Source: Nitrospirota bacterium (lineage in GTDB: Bacteria; Nitrospirota; Thermodesulfovibrionia; Thermodesulfovibrionales; JdFR-85). Taken from it: a DNA stretch of 33,382 bases. The stretch is taken from positions 1 through 33,382 of the forward strand of contig JAYWMQ010000045.1 in assembly GCA_035873375.1 (NCBI GenBank). The letters run 5' to 3'. How positions within the stretch are numbered: the first letter of the stretch is position 1; each line of letters begins with the position of its first letter. The notes below the pieces were generated by a model, which saw only the letters and a program-made list of their open reading frames with translations, did no database searches and was not told where the DNA came from. Shown here one piece after another: positions 27,937 through 33,279 of this stretch. A program made the translations under genes and the position numbers.

Positions 27937-28140
27937 ATGAAGCTGAAAGTAATTGTTCATGAAGCGGAAGAAGGAGGCTACTGGGCTGAGGTGCCAGCTA
28001 TTCCAGGCTGTGCAACTCAGGGAGAGACCTTCGACGAACTTCTCACCAACCTTTATGAGGCCGTCGAAGGTTGCTTATCCGTAGATATAAAAGACATTGA
28101 AATAACGGAGAAGGACAAAGTCCTGGAGATCGCAGTGTGA
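27937..28140 (+). CDS. hicB: HicB-family antitoxin
   Basis: The 67-residue protein has the short HicB/UPF0150 partial-RNase-H fold: VIVHEAEEGGYWAEVPAIPGCATQGETFDELLTNLYEAVEG. It lacks a separate DNA-binding domain, as in minimal HicB antitoxins. HicB binds and blocks HicA and usually represses its own operon. GTGAGGTGAT lies just before the ATG. The stop overlaps the hicA GTG by 4 bp (GTGA), so both proteins are made together. Order is antitoxin then toxin. Confidence 0.9.
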   Translation: MKLKVIVHEAEEGGYWAEVPAIPGCATQGETFDELLTNLYEAVEGCLSVDIKDIEITEKDKVLEIAV

Positions 28141-28343
28141 AAGCTATATCGGGGAAGGACTTTGCAAAACTGCTTGAAAAGAGAGGTTGGGAGTTGCGGA
28201 GAACAAAAGGCAGCCATCACATCTACGTGAAAGAGGGAAATCCGGTTCGGATTTCTGTACCCATACATGGAAATAGCCCGCTAAAGATCGGCTTGCTGAA
28301 GCACCTTATGAAGGTTGCAGGAATTGATGAAAGCGAGTTGTGA
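28137..28343 (+). CDS. hicA: HicA-family mRNA interferase toxin
   Basis: The 68-residue dsRBD-like protein has the HicA core: SGKDFAKLLEKRGWELRRTKGSHHIYVKEG with the catalytic histidine in GSHH (25-28), followed by ISVPIHGNSPLKIGLLKHLMK. HicA cleaves mRNA when free of HicB. The start is a GTG inside the hicB stop. The pair lies just upstream of the first copy of the inverted-repeat element, on the edge of the accessory region. Confidence 0.9.
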   Translation: MKAISGKDFAKLLEKRGWELRRTKGSHHIYVKEGNPVRISVPIHGNSPLKIGLLKHLMKVAGIDESEL

Positions 28344-28387: not shown

Positions 28388-28396
28388 GTAGCGGGA

Positions 28397-28591
28397 CGAC
28401 CTGGGGGACATGTTGCATACTACGCAAAACTATTGACTGGCAAGAAAATGAAGTTGATAAAATTGCAGGATTATAGCTTACTATGACAGCCATGATTAGA
28501 CATGCCAGGAGTCTCGCACATGCCCAAATACACGAGAGGAAGAACTTAAATATGTATAAGTTTTGCATAGTGTGCAACAACGTTAAGGTCG
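28397..28591. mobile_element. MITE-like inverted-repeat element, copy A
   Basis: This 195 bp element has imperfect terminal inverted repeats. The left end runs CGACCT...GTTGCATACTACGCAAAACT, and the right end is its reverse complement with a few changes (AGTTTTGCATAGTGTGCAAC...AGGTCG). The inner part shares long identical stretches with two other copies in the window, such as TTGACTGGCAAGAAAATGAA and GATAAAATTG. No transposase is encoded. The 116 bp that follow, up to the next gene, hold nothing I recognise. Confidence 0.75.
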
Positions 28592-28707
28592 CATACAACT
28601 TGTTATCCGCACACAATGAAAATAAGCAATTTGCCTATTTGAATCGATATAATTGAGACTAAAAGAATTGCAAAACAATGTCTATATATTAACCAAAATG
28701 AAGAATC

Positions 28708-29157
28708 GTGATAATAATGGCCTGTGACCTTTTGAACGATATCTCTTACCAAAAGGCCATCATTGCCCTGGTTGGAACGCTTTTCGGCGGTTTTATTTCT
28801 TATTTTGTCGGCGTTGGTCTTTACGTCAAAAAAGGATTTTATGATCATGCCATCAAATTTAAACGTGCTTTTATTGATGAACTCTATGCTATTGAAAGAG
28901 AAGGGGGAAACCCGTCTAAAATCCTCCCTAAAGCTATGAAAAGACATGACCTTGCTGTTTTTGAATTTATACGTGTTTTGTCAAGGCGTAAACGAAAAGC
29001 ATTGTCCAGAGCTTGGGATGAATATCGTAATCCCAAAAAGCAAGGCAAAGTTGACTTGACGCATTATTATTTTGAAGGGGAGTCTTCTGAAGAGCAGGAA
29101 AATAGGCGCAAGCTCATCATCGAGCGTCTTAGTAAAATAATTTCCTTTGCTGAATAA
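28708..29157 (+). CDS. hypothetical single-span membrane protein
   Basis: I do not recognise the family of this 149-residue protein. Residues 17-40 form one hydrophobic membrane segment (IIALVGTLFGGFISYFVGVG). The rest is a charged, probably cytoplasmic helical domain with VFEFIRVLSRRKRKALSRAW and a C-terminal basic helix. An alternative ATG lies three codons in. The gene sits between copies A and B of the inverted-repeat element. Its stop codon is directly followed by the first 35 bp repeat unit. Lower GC than the core suggests acquisition by transfer. Confidence 0.65.
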   Translation: MIIMACDLLNDISYQKAIIALVGTLFGGFISYFVGVGLYVKKGFYDHAIKFKRAFIDELYAIEREGGNPSKILPKAMKRHDLAVFEFIRVLSRRKRKALSRAWDEYRNPKKQGKVDLTHYYFEGESSEEQENRRKLIIERLSKIISFAE

Positions 29158-29227
29158 GGAAACGAACTTAAGGGACGTTGTTACCCACTATGGGAAACGA
29201 ACTTAAGGGACGTTGTTACCCACTATG
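29158..29227. repeat. two exact tandem copies of a 35 bp unit
   Basis: The units at 29158-29192 and 29193-29227 are identical. The unit contains ACGAACTTAAGGGACGTTG and ends CCCACTATG. The second copy forms the left terminus of element copy B, so the first looks like a duplicated or partial element end. Confidence 0.9.
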
Positions 29228-29404
29228 CAAAACTATTGACTGGCAAGAAAATGAAGTTGATAAAATTGTAGGATTATAGCATACTATGACAGCAATGATT
29301 AGATATGTCAGTAGCCTCGCACACGCCCAATTGCATGAGGGGAGGAGCTTTATAATGTATAAGTTATGCATAGTATGCAACAACATCCCTAAGGTTCGTA
29401 TTCC
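29193..29404. mobile_element. MITE-like inverted-repeat element, copy B
   Basis: This is a 212 bp relative of copy A with the longest terminal inverted repeats (about 43 bp, imperfect). The left end is GGAAACGAACTTAAGGGAC and the right end reads GGGATGTTGTT and GGAATACGAACCTTA on the opposite strand. The inner conserved block TTGACTGGCAAGAAAATGAA is shared with copies A and C. No gene is inside. The 51 bp after it, up to the next ATG, hold nothing recognised. Confidence 0.75.
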
Positions 29405-29455
29405 AAGCCTCATGTTACTCCAATTTGCCGGTGATTTGCGACGTTCGGTGTAAAA

Positions 29456-30073
29456 ATGGCAATCTGGTTGCGGACAAACGAATTCGAAGAAGCAGTGCAA
29501 TCTTTCGAGTCCTGCCTTGAATTTGCTATAAAGGTAACGGGGGATTTATCCTACTGGAAATGGACTATGATTAGTTTGCACAATGCACTTCAAGGGTTCA
29601 TGGTCATTTCCTTGCGGAGGAGCGATGGGTTCGGACCAATTAGAGATGACATAGAGAAGGAATGGCATGAAGCACGAAGTAAAGGGCATCAGCTACCCGT
29701 GGAAAAATTGGATAGCTTCTTGAATCTATACAAAAAAATAAAGAAGGAAGGAAGTCTTCAATATTCGAATGAAGAGCGGTTTATTCCCAAGGGTAACCAA
29801 GGACATTCTGTGAAGAAAGTTAACGAGATTAGAGATGAGTTCATTCATTTTACTCCCAAGGGCTGGAGTCTCGAATGTTCTGGATTGCCTAACTGCTGCT
29901 TGGATTGCCTGCAAATCGCACGTTTTTTGCATGAGAACTGTAGAAACATCTCAACTCAATCAGGGCACGACAGGGACAGGGTTATAAGAGTCCTATCTGA
30001 ACTGGAAAAAGTCTTTTCTGATCTAAAAACACAGTATACAAACACCGAACCAAGCAAGCGAGTGGACGCTTGA
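29456..30073 (+). CDS. HEPN-like hypothetical protein ending inside an attC-like site
   Basis: The 205-residue, mainly helical protein has EFEEAVQSFESCLEFAIKVTG at the start and KWTMISLHNALQGFMVISLR near residue 38. A later IRDEFIHFTPKGWSLE (about residues 125-140) has RDEFIH fitting the HEPN Rx4H motif. HEPN proteins are often RNases in toxin or defence systems, and that activity is inferred only from the motif. A second cluster, GLPNCCLDCLQIARFLHENC, is Cys-rich. The stop codon lies inside the attC-like site at 30044-30100, as is usual for integron gene cassettes. No neighbour antitoxin is evident. Confidence 0.6.
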   Translation: MAIWLRTNEFEEAVQSFESCLEFAIKVTGDLSYWKWTMISLHNALQGFMVISLRRSDGFGPIRDDIEKEWHEARSKGHQLPVEKLDSFLNLYKKIKKEGSLQYSNEERFIPKGNQGHSVKKVNEIRDEFIHFTPKGWSLECSGLPNCCLDCLQIARFLHENCRNISTQSGHDRDRVIRVLSELEKVFSDLKTQYTNTEPSKRVDA

Positions 30074-30100
30074 CAGCGCCGCTCCATTCAATCGTTAGAT
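30044..30100 (+). repeat. attC-like (59-base-element type) recombination site
   Basis: The site is 57 bp and ends in GTTAGAT, an exact GTTRRRY box. It begins ACCGAAC, one base from RYYYAAC. The central arms GAGTGGACGC (30060-30069) and GCGCCGCTC (30076-30084) pair with one unpaired A at 30066, the extrahelical base typical of attC, around a TTGACA loop. It overlaps the end of one gene and lies 29 bp before the next ATG. No integrase is in the window. Confidence 0.65.
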
Positions 30101-30129
30101 AGTAAAATTATTAAGGTATTCATCTAACC

Positions 30130-30936
30130 ATGAGTAAAAGTTTAAATTGCAATCCAGCGTCCGTAGCAAATGCATCAGGCTTTCCACTTCAAATGCGCCT
30201 TGCGGACATCGCAAAAACTTCCGGACGATGGAGGCTATTAGGAGAAGAACATCCATGGTCATTGCAGTCCGGACACTCGGAGGGTTTCATTGATCTTATC
30301 CTCCTTGACACTCATGAGGAACAAACCATAGTGGTTGAATGTAAACGTGTCAAGCAAACAGTATGGGTTTTCTTGCTTCCTAAAACTAATCCGGAAAAGC
30401 GTTCACATGCAAGATTATGGGTTTCATCTAAAAGCAATTCTAAATGGGAAATGCTTGGATGGTCTCAATTTCAAGTAGATCCTCAATGTCACGAATCAAA
30501 ATACTGTGCCATTCCTGGACAAGATCATGGAAGACATAACCTTCTTGAAAGAACTGCATCAGAATTAATTGCTTCAGTTGAAGCCCTTGCACTTCAGGAA
30601 CGGGAATTAACCGAAAAAGGTCAAGCTTCAGATGTAAGATTTAGAAGATGCTACATTCCTGTAATTGTCACCACTGCTCAACTACAAGTGGCTTGTTTTG
30701 ATCCAAGTGAGGTGTCCCTTGTTGATGGTACGTTACCTGCCGAAGCTAATTTTTCGGAAGTTCCTTATGTTAAGTTGCGTAAAGCCTTAACAAACAGTTT
30801 TTCGACAACGTCACAAACAAATTTAACAGAAGCATATCAAAAAGCGGAGCGGACTGTATTCATAGTCAATGCTGAAAAATTTGGTGATTTTCTATATGCT
30901 TGTGAGGTCCATCGCAGTGCCAGTTGGTGGGAATAA
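30130..30936 (+). CDS. PD-(D/E)XK-like nuclease-fold protein
   Basis: I do not know a named family for this 268-residue protein. The N-terminal half contains FPLQMRLADIAKTSGRWRLLGEEHPW, then GFIDLILLDTHEEQTIVVECKRVK (about residues 52-75). The Glu, Asp and ECK positions fit the PD-(D/E)XK nuclease active site (E...D-x13-ExK). The C-terminal half has VRFRRCYIPVIVTTAQLQVACFD, resembling a structural continuation of the fold. It could be a restriction-like enzyme or a regulator using the fold. The gene follows the attC-like site, the position expected for a gene cassette, but no second attC follows it. Confidence 0.6.
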   Translation: MSKSLNCNPASVANASGFPLQMRLADIAKTSGRWRLLGEEHPWSLQSGHSEGFIDLILLDTHEEQTIVVECKRVKQTVWVFLLPKTNPEKRSHARLWVSSKSNSKWEMLGWSQFQVDPQCHESKYCAIPGQDHGRHNLLERTASELIASVEALALQERELTEKGQASDVRFRRCYIPVIVTTAQLQVACFDPSEVSLVDGTLPAEANFSEVPYVKLRKALTNSFSTTSQTNLTEAYQKAERTVFIVNAEKFGDFLYACEVHRSASWWE

Positions 30937-30995
30937 AAAAAACGATTTTACTATTTGCTGGAAGAGGGATTGCTCAAAGCGCTGTAGGGAGAAAA

Positions 30996-31065
30996 AGGGT
31001 CAAAGCTTTCATATTGACATTGTTTGATAACATTATGTATCTGTCAATGATAAAAATTCGACCCT
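30996..31065. repeat. REP-like nested palindrome
   Basis: In this 70 bp element AGGGTC pairs with GACCCT at the ends, and ATTGACA pairs with TGTCAAT inside around a 22 nt loop. It resembles the large REP-type palindromes of many Gram-negative genomes. The rest of the gap 30937-31154 holds one small hairpin (GATTGC/GCAATC near 31115) and nothing else recognised. Confidence 0.6.
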
Positions 31066-31154
31066 ATTACTTTATTAACCCGGCAACTATTCAGAGAGAC
31101 TGACAGCCTGTAAGATTGCGGGTTTAGCAATCAAATTGTTAGCAGTAAAAAAAC

Positions 31155-31646
31155 ATGAACAAATTCTGGCTGAAGCAAATATATGAAGAAGCAGTTAAAC
31201 GGTATTTGGACGGTGAGTTCCTTAGCAGTAAAAGGTCATCAGATTCTGGATACTTACTTAAGCTTCTGGGTTTTGAGTTATTGCTTAAAGCAGCACTATA
31301 TATCGACAAAGGAAAAGAAGATTACTCACATAATTACTACGCGGTGTATTGCACATTAAGCCGAGATGTCAAAAAGAATTTAGTTTCAGAAGCGCAACAG
31401 ATTTCACAAATTTTCGATATCAAAGACAAAATAAAAAATATTTTAACTTGGTATTCTGATAACTTTGTTAGGCTTAGGTACCCTTTTAACTCTTATAAAT
31501 GCCTTACTGAACCCGAATATAAAGAATACAGCAAGTTATATTCGGAGTTGGGATGTCCAGAAGGTGAAGCAGAATTTGAGTATTACCCTGAAGAATTACG
31601 TGGCCTATTTATGGCTTTGGAAGTGTATGTTAAGAAAAACTGCTAA
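31155..31646 (+). CDS. HEPN-like hypothetical protein
   Basis: The 163-residue helical protein has DSGYLLKLLGFELLLKAALYI, SHNYYAVYCTL and WYSDNFVRLRYPFN. The pattern of an acidic helix with FE..LKA, a following histidine and the RYPF segment resembles HEPN-domain proteins. It lacks a clear Rx4-6H catalytic motif, so it may be inactive or a partner. No ribosome site is strong before the ATG. It lies between the REP-like palindrome and copy C of the inverted-repeat element. No adjacent nucleotidyltransferase antitoxin is present. Confidence 0.5.
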   Translation: MNKFWLKQIYEEAVKRYLDGEFLSSKRSSDSGYLLKLLGFELLLKAALYIDKGKEDYSHNYYAVYCTLSRDVKKNLVSEAQQISQIFDIKDKIKNILTWYSDNFVRLRYPFNSYKCLTEPEYKEYSKLYSELGCPEGEAEFEYYPEELRGLFMALEVYVKKNC

Positions 31647-31751
31647 CAGACTCATCGATAACACACAATATATTTTGCACAATTAGAGCCATAGTGACCT
31701 CGAAGCTGGTAAAGTAATTTAACCCAAAAACCAAACCATAGGAGGCACACC

Positions 31752-31856
31752 ATGACTCAGAGACATTGTACCGAGGGAGACAGAAGACAGACTTCCGTTG
31801 AGGCATACTATGCAAGATTCTTGACTGGCAAGAAAATGAAGTTGATAAATTTGTAG
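31752..31856 (+). pseudogene. 34-codon frame with strong ribosome site, cut by element copy C
   Basis: TAGGAGGCACACC precedes the ATG at 31752, an excellent translation start. The first codons read MTQRHCTEGDRRQTSVE, but the frame then runs into the shared inner sequence of element copy C (FLTGKKMKL) and stops. It looks like the 5' end of a gene into which the element inserted, with the remainder lost. I do not recognise the protein. Confidence 0.45.
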
Positions 31857-31978
31857 GATTATAGCATACTATGACAGCCATGATTAAACATGCCAGGAAC
31901 CCCGCACACGTCCAATTGATCGAAAGGAAAAACTTGCTAATGTATTAAGTTATGCATAGTATACAACGTTACTGAAGT
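31791..31978. mobile_element. MITE-like inverted-repeat element, copy C
   Basis: This is the third copy, about 188 bp. Termini are GGCATACTATGCAAG on the left and CTTAATAC...TATGCATAGTATACAACG on the right. The inner block TTGACTGGCAAGAAAATGAA and TATAGCATACTATGACAGCC are shared with copy B. It is more diverged at its ends than A and B. Confidence 0.7.
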
Positions 31979-32033
31979 TAGTCCGTACAAAGAAATAAAA
32001 TGGGGCAGTTTCGTTATGCCTATACGGGGAAGA

Positions 32034-32426: not shown

Positions 32427-32795
32427 ATGGTTCATATTATGGACTTAAGAAACGGACTTGAGGGACATCCTATAGTCCCCTGTCAAGTAAAAAATACATC
32501 TCAAGAAATATCTTTTAGAATTAAAGAGTTACAGAACCTTACAAGGATTCAAACGCACCTCTCCTCTAAGCCTTCAAAAGACTTTTTTAAGTTTTGTGGC
32601 GAGTCTCTCACCGTAATGGAACCATGCACCTTATCGTTACGTTTATCCGATGTATCCCATTAAAAAGGGATCACCCATCATCCCTTATCCAGGTTGCAGA
32701 GTTCAGTGAGAGGCCCCTTTATTGTCCCGGACGAGGTCCATTTATGGCCTCAACGTTGTTGCTCGGGGTCCTCTCGCCAATATTAAAATAGTGTT
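32427..32795. other. 369 bp non-coding region next to the IS110 remnant
   Basis: The left part has a GGGAC/GTCCC hairpin near 32465-32480 whose flank (GAAACGGACTTGAGGGAC) resembles the terminus of inverted-repeat element B. The right part is the putative structured RNA described separately. No convincing gene is present. Confidence 0.5.
32605..32712 (-). ncRNA. possible structured RNA of the IS110 element
   Basis: CTCTCAC (32605-32611) pairs with GTGAGAG (32706-32712). Inside, AACC pairs with GGTT across an internal loop, and ATCCC/GGGAT forms an apical hairpin. This lies in the non-coding 3' flank of an IS110-family transposase, where some members of the family encode a guide (bridge) RNA. 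This is a structural guess only. Confidence 0.3.
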
Positions 32796-33279
32796 TTATT
32801 CTATATTCAGGTATTTCGGGTCAAAGAACTCCTTTTTCTTCATCAGCGTCCATGCGATTATAAGCATCTTGGCCGCCAGCTTTACTCTCATCTTTGTTTT
32901 TATGCCTCTTTCCCTCTGACGGCCCCTGAGCTTATTGGTAAAATATGCAATAAAATACTTATCCCTGCTCGATGCAATCATTGCTGCCTGGTATAAGGCA
33001 TATCTGATATCCGACTTTCCCTTCTTGGATATGGAGGGTGTTACTGCATCGGAAGTTTTTCCGCTTCTGCTTGCTGACAAATCCATACCCACCAGCTTCA
33101 GTACCTGAGAACCTTTATTAAAGCGGAAGGGATTGCCAATAGCTCCCAGGACCATTGCTGAGATTAACGGGCCAAACCCCGGAATACTTAAAAGGTATTC
33201 GTATTCCGGAAACACCCCGCAGACTGCATTGATCTGTTGCTGTGTAAGCGTCAAATAAAGCCCATCTTCCCAGGAAGAG
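32796..33279 (-). pseudogene. IS110-family transposase, C-terminal fragment
   Basis: About 160 residues match the C-terminal (Transposase_20) domain of IS110/IS1111 transposases: LLSIPGFGPLISAMVLGAIG (a helix-hairpin-helix), FRFNKGSQVLKLVGMDLSASRSGK with the catalytic-serine region, SISKKGKSDIRYALYQAAMIAS, and KLAAKMLIIAWTLMKKKE. The N-terminal DEDD/RuvC-like half is missing. The reading frame continues to 33326 but, from about 33280, sequence belongs to another element whose left end begins GTAA, so I read this as a transposase truncated by insertion. It cannot be active alone. Confidence 0.8.

Follow-up and report, generated by a model that had tools for sequence, protein, structure and literature searches.

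Three collinear repeats among orphan genes

The window, by which we mean the whole stretch of 33,382 nucleotides analysed here, belongs to a 2.67-Mb draft assembly of 63 contigs. It carries a HicB-like/HicA toxin-antitoxin pair (27937–28343), and just downstream of this pair lies the first of three related repeats, copies A, B and C; the other neighbouring genes are orphan ORFs with no Pfam, NCBIfam or PADLOC match. The first-pass annotation had described the three copies as sharing inverted termini and a near-identical inner block, and both features are present as claimed, the termini being of the GCATACTATGC type. In a repeat search of the window, the copies were collinear on the plus strand and ran in register, without gaps, over 171 nt, the other two being 87% and 74% identical to copy A. 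BLAST of copy B against its own genome returned A at 9e-54 and C at 6e-46, far beyond chance, so that the repeat relationship is real. The ends of each copy were set by extension to the ends of the family consensus, to which the three copies are 86–92% identical over the aligned part:

28396–28592, plus strand: copy A, 197 bp
29158–29227, plus strand: outer left terminus of copy B (GGAAACGAACTTAAGGGACGTTGTTACCCACTATG), 35 bp, twice in tandem (repeat search)
29198–29398, plus strand: copy B, 201 bp, the copy nearest to the family consensus (92%)
about 29198–29233 and 29363–29398: terminal repeats of copy B
31783–31981, plus strand: copy C, 199 bp, with its outer ends degraded further

The copies thus measure 197–201 bp, within the 190–212 bp given previously; the upper value of 212 bp was not reproduced, though copy B does have the extra 35-bp tandem copy at its left end.

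The first-pass annotation had raised a structured recombination or RNA element that helped to assemble the cluster. Since small orphan genes alternate with the repeats, we considered whether the latter are gene-cassette recombination sites (integron attC or similar) that built it. A 65-bp repeat lying between B and C (31072–31136), which also occurs about 50 bp from another family member, copy F on contig C31, could be taken in the same sense. Against this, no integron integrase over cut-off was found in the genome, and, in a comparison with the 17 genomes of the host's family, nothing that lies between the copies, the 65-bp repeat excepted, turned up as a mobile unit at another place. An attC-like pair (RYYYAAC/GTTRRRY) was absent in a strict scan, which was not validated on known sites. 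Assembly of the cluster through such sites is extremely improbable.

The 65-bp repeat itself is located upstream of an ORF (31155–31646), recurs with 94% identity at C31:10485 and is present in two related genomes, G004 and G006. The initial 28 nt (GGCAACTATTCAGAGAGACTGACAGCCT) are found about 10–20 times per genome in the four genomes searched, and the repeat has no Rfam match at gathering score. A further repeat at 32456–32954 begins with GGACTTGAGGGACATCCTATAGTCCCC, a similar outer end. It has copies on C31 and C6, at the ends of contigs C42 and C43, and in G006 and G002; on C31 and C6 it abuts the left end of a copy of the A/B/C family. At the contig end lies an IS110-family transposase gene (PF02371; 32796–33326, minus strand), and the last ~140 bp of the window recur with 99–100% identity at several other places, mostly contig ends, which is probably the cause of the assembly break.

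A full-length relative and a common deletion seam

A genome-wide search, as the first-pass annotation had recommended, revealed that the copies are not restricted to the window cluster. By BLAST, on which all copy counts are based, seven copies in the host genome are near-complete and about 10 more are end fragments; a single relative is full-length. In addition to the window, near-complete copies were found with copy B on contigs C39, C43, C31 and C11, and right-truncated copies on C36 and C43, together with a series of one-ended fragments. The seven near-complete copies thus lie on five contigs, with unrelated flanks, and copies are also present in G006 and, as a shorter variant, in G002. 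Identity of the near-complete copies to the consensus is 83–92%, indicating that these copies are not recent.

One of the one-ended matches (C37:43329–43432) leads directly into a Y1_Tnp gene. It belongs to a transposon of ~1.1 kb on contig C37 (42351–43458), hereafter R37, which encloses an intact transposase gene of 330 codons. AACTTCAGGGACGTCAACCTCAGGGACGTTGTTACCTACTATGCAAAACTATTGACAGAAAAGGG ahead of this gene and GTTTTGCATATCACACAACAACGTCCCTGAAGTTCG behind it form terminal inverted repeats with the same sequence as the ends of the short copies, so that the same genome holds the transposase gene with matching termini that the first-pass annotation had called for. Comparison of R37 with the family consensus revealed how the two are related. 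Consensus positions 3–125 correspond to the R37 5′ end, comprising the terminal repeat, the promoter region and the first ~14 codons (79% identity, E 8e-24), and positions 123–201 correspond to the last ~13 codons and the 3′ terminal repeat (81%, E 3e-16). The two blocks tile the consensus without a gap and overlap by 3 nt, CAC, a trinucleotide found at both R37 break positions; what is missing between the two CACs is an internal segment of ~900 bp of the transposase gene. In a control with 300 dinucleotide shuffles of the consensus, scores reached at most 29 bits. Three independent autonomous relatives (L070, L071 and L077) gave the same blocks and seam; so did the intact copy of G006 (L157), where the seam fitted to within a few bases. 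The features of copy B, with the seams of A and C, can accordingly be laid out as follows:

29236–29264, plus strand: promoter-like relic, TTGACT – 17 bp – GATAAA (read from the sequence)
29285–29322, plus strand: relic of transposase codons 1 to ~14 (MPRQPRLDIPGALH in R37), with indels (alignment to R37)
29320–29322, plus strand: deletion seam with CAC microhomology, joining R37 positions L051:5330 and L051:4430
29320–29361, plus strand: relic of the last ~13 transposase codons, running into the right terminal repeat (alignment to R37)
28517–28519, plus strand: seam CAC of copy A
31905–31907, plus strand: seam CAC of copy C

The half that had been noted as diverged lies beyond the seam, on the 3′ side of the element. 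The copies therefore combine small size (197–201 bp) and inverted ends of ~35 bp with relics of a gene rather than an intact one, as in a MITE, and R37 represents an autonomous relative that shares their termini.

The seam also bears on whether the copies are one family. They could be decayed copies of the transposon, each truncated independently, and about 10 places where one end only is left, as well as different deletions in related species (L079 and G203), might be read in this way. However, the same CAC seam is common to all seven near-complete host copies and to those of G006, while their flanks are unrelated; the shared seam indicates that one founder deletion occurred and was then multiplied. 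Independent truncation is very improbable, and the copies are better described as one multiplied, non-autonomous family.

The promoter-like relic of copy B adjoins the inner side of its left terminal repeat, and its counterpart in R37 is TTGACA – 16 bp – TATAAA. A strict promoter scan did not include the relic and called TTGATA-17-CATACT in B and C instead; it found 14 promoters versus 9.9 (sd 2.9) in shuffles, within 1.4 sd. When folded as single-stranded DNA, copy B was more stable than shuffles (z = −3.3) with its two ends paired, whereas copy A reached z = −1.5. Several near-complete copies have a co-directional ORF 35–270 bp from their right end (ORFs were called mechanically), which leaves room for promoter donation, although replication direction could also explain the orientation. 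The fold of B and the position of most near-complete copies upstream of a co-directional ORF would also be expected of a repeat with a structured-RNA or regulatory role (like a riboswitch, an sRNA or an attenuator) that is kept for its function and is not a transposon relic; an RNA element was among the possibilities raised in the first-pass annotation. No Rfam match at gathering score was obtained, however, and the weak matches near A and B fall in a neighbouring gene. The terminal inverted repeats account for the fold, and the deleted transposase gene accounts for the content, making an RNA or regulatory origin very improbable.

By contrast, the dispersal of copies in this genome and in its relatives, their terminal inverted repeats and the presence of a transposase gene with the same termini bear out the earlier suggestion of a non-autonomous transposon. 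We conclude that A, B and C are very probably MITE-like elements, derived by deletion from a RAYT transposon with flanking TIRs (TIRtron) and most likely moved in trans by R37-type transposases.

R37, its relatives and known element classes

The R37 protein matched Y1_Tnp over cut-off (E 2.4e-12). It contains the HUH motif NHVH at residue 59 and the Y motif YIHLNP at residue 119, as in TIRYTs of TnpAY1 subclass 2.1, and its C-terminal helix-turn-helix matched HTH_23 (1.5e-6, over cut-off) and Bac_DnaA_C (6.5e-6, below cut-off). Its score against NF047646, the NCBIfam model for REP-associated tyrosine transposases, was below cut-off (66 versus 80 bits), and no solved structure matched its sequence at E ≤ 0.01. 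R37 and its relatives possess long terminal inverted repeats and no GTAG REP; their box, GGGAC[AG]T or GGGGAC[AG]T, is a partial fit to GGGGWSAS. Judged by these features, R37 fits the TIRYT/TIRtron class, TnpAY1 subclass 2.1. R37 is flanked by an ~80-bp repeat (C37:43454–43540, containing GTCATTCCCG...CGGGAATCC) that is abundant in G001, G002 and G006. The host genome carries a second TIRYT, R54 (C54:1889–2860), which is 51% identical to R37 and has its own terminal inverted repeats, AACTTAGGGGACGTTATTGACTAC. Fragments of the R54 type, N-terminal on C11 (547–681) and C-terminal on C49 (26–304), indicate together with R54 that a second TIRtron family with decayed copies exists in this genome.

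Among the 17 genomes of the family, matches to the short element were found in the host genome itself, G002, G004 and G006; in a phylum sample of 296 genomes, the additional matches were weak or partial, except for one clear element in G203. G006 holds two near-complete copies, an intact R37-type gene (88% identity) and fragments, and the G002 version lacks ~25 further bp around the seam. The G203 element has another seam, at a GGTGAG common to both sides of its own transposase gene, and L079 2938–3498 (BMS3Bbin05) is an independent internal-deletion derivative of ~560 bp with another repeat sequence within its 3′ part. Relatives of R37 in Nitrospirae, Desulfobulbaceae, Syntrophobacterales and Syntrophorhabdaceae have common ends, GGGACGTTGTTG...CAACAACGTCCC, and most of them have a −35 box of the TTGAC type immediately within the left end. 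There are consequently at least three different seams: CAC in the host and G006, GGTGAG in G203, and that of the ~560-bp form in BMS3Bbin05. Taken together, the seams suggest that deletions have produced such derivatives repeatedly. In this phylum, RAYT transposons with flanking TIRs may lose their gene time and again through deletion at short homologies and so give rise to REPIN-like miniature elements, a generalisation that we advance tentatively and with rather less than even confidence.

The TIRtron class, with its TIRYTs (TIR-associated tyrosine transposases), is that of Di Nocera et al. 2013 (PMC3733652); Quentin et al. 2018 (PMC6006769) assign most TIRYTs to TnpAY1 subclass 2.1. These papers also report TIR families and TIR dimers. 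R37 resembles TIRYTs in NHVH, YIHLNP, the DnaA_C/HTH_23-like C-terminal helix-turn-helix and long terminal inverted repeats that are not GTAG REPs, and its terminal box GGGGAC[AG]T is similar to the published motif GGGGWSAS, fitting in part only; the window elements differ from TIRYTs in lacking a transposase. No TIRtron-derived MITE keeping both ends of the transposase gene is described in the parts of the TIRYT/TIRtron literature searched. A REPIN is a REP doublet that forms a hairpin, for which Bertels and Rainey 2011 (PMC3116915) propose as source an IS200-like ancestor with REPs at its flanks. The window family is similar to REPINs in having two inverted copies of a palindromic terminus, in being non-autonomous and in its presumed mobilisation by a RAYT in trans. 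It is unlike REPINs in that its termini carry no GTAG tag, it numbers seven copies and not hundreds, each is about 200 bp long, and remnants of the transposase gene are kept. With bacterial MITEs such as ERIC and NEMIS, as listed in PMC3733652, it shares a size within 70–300 bp, inverted repeats at both ends, a non-coding and intergenic nature and an autonomous relative. The parent here is a Y1/HUH transposon, which distinguishes the family from bacterial MITEs in general, and target duplication is hence not expected. The palindrome-associated transposable elements of Haloquadratum are reportedly also small non-autonomous relatives of Y1-type insertion sequences, but are said to be archaeal and tied to IS200/IS605 proper, not to RAYT/TIRYT.

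MITEs, REPINs and the TIR families of TIRYTs are all known already, and the present one is otherwise an ordinary MITE family. The usual description of RAYT/TnpAREP proteins is that of domesticated enzymes; the family suggests that those of subclass 2.1 are still able to move DNA. What it adds is a stage, still recognisable, that lies between a RAYT transposon and a REPIN-like element, on the route proposed in PMC3116915. Here a single genome, and relatives too, contain both an intact RAYT gene with flanking TIRs and miniature derivatives whose seams can be identified, so that this proposed origin of REPIN-like elements becomes testable. If gene shedding is indeed repeated, the proposed path from RAYT transposon to REPIN would be open to direct view, with a surviving promoter upstream of co-directional genes.

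A proposal for mobilisation

The alignments show each copy to be a TIRtron that has lost ~900 bp of its Y1 (HUH-motif) transposase gene between two CAC trinucleotides and has kept the promoter region, the first ~14 and last ~13 codons and, at either end, a terminal inverted repeat of ~35 bp (about GAACTTNNGGGACGTTGTTGCATACTATGCAAAACT). A single deleted founder then spread to at least seven near-complete copies in the host genome. Mobilisation was most likely in trans, by an R37-type transposase encoded elsewhere in the genome that would recognise the ends as single-stranded hairpin or inverted-repeat substrates and move the elements without target duplications. It is from the dispersal of the copies that we infer their movement. 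Since the MITE ends are just 79–81% identical to those of R37, a different but related transposase may now be their partner, or the family may have no activity at present. The elements now lie between genes, where downstream genes may make use of their leftover promoter or hairpins.

For Y1/HUH transposons, with chemistry as in IS200/IS605, target duplications are not expected. The flanking duplications that the first-pass annotation had proposed to look for were not found consistently across 12 copies, the mean being 2.3 nt versus 1.7 for mismatched flanks. This lack fits Y1 chemistry but is weak evidence, because the ends are degraded and one copy, E, has a 6-bp direct repeat at its flanks. 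The latter repeat, and the long terminal inverted repeats typical of DDE elements, are what would be seen if the family were a MITE of a cut-and-paste (DDE) insertion sequence whose ends resemble those of a RAYT by chance. Such a coincidence has next to no chance of being correct, given that target duplications are not consistent and that the element aligns over its entire length to the Y1 transposon on either side of a single seam, taking in the regions where the transposase gene starts and stops. For the preferred Y1-derived family, a search for empty sites among the 17 family genomes, with the window region and, for 11 other places (R37 among them), the two flanks joined as queries, yielded none, nor did a search for the G006 copy among 176 genomes of the order; in these comparisons, the flank was conserved on one side at a time only.

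Partial tandem copies of the outer left terminus occur in three elements, always from the same outer end: the 35-bp copy in B, one of ~15 bp in R37 (L051, near 5443), and nested copies of 18, 21 and 33 bp in the G203 element (L146 1640–1800, reverse strand). These tandem copies may be the footprint of aberrant end processing.
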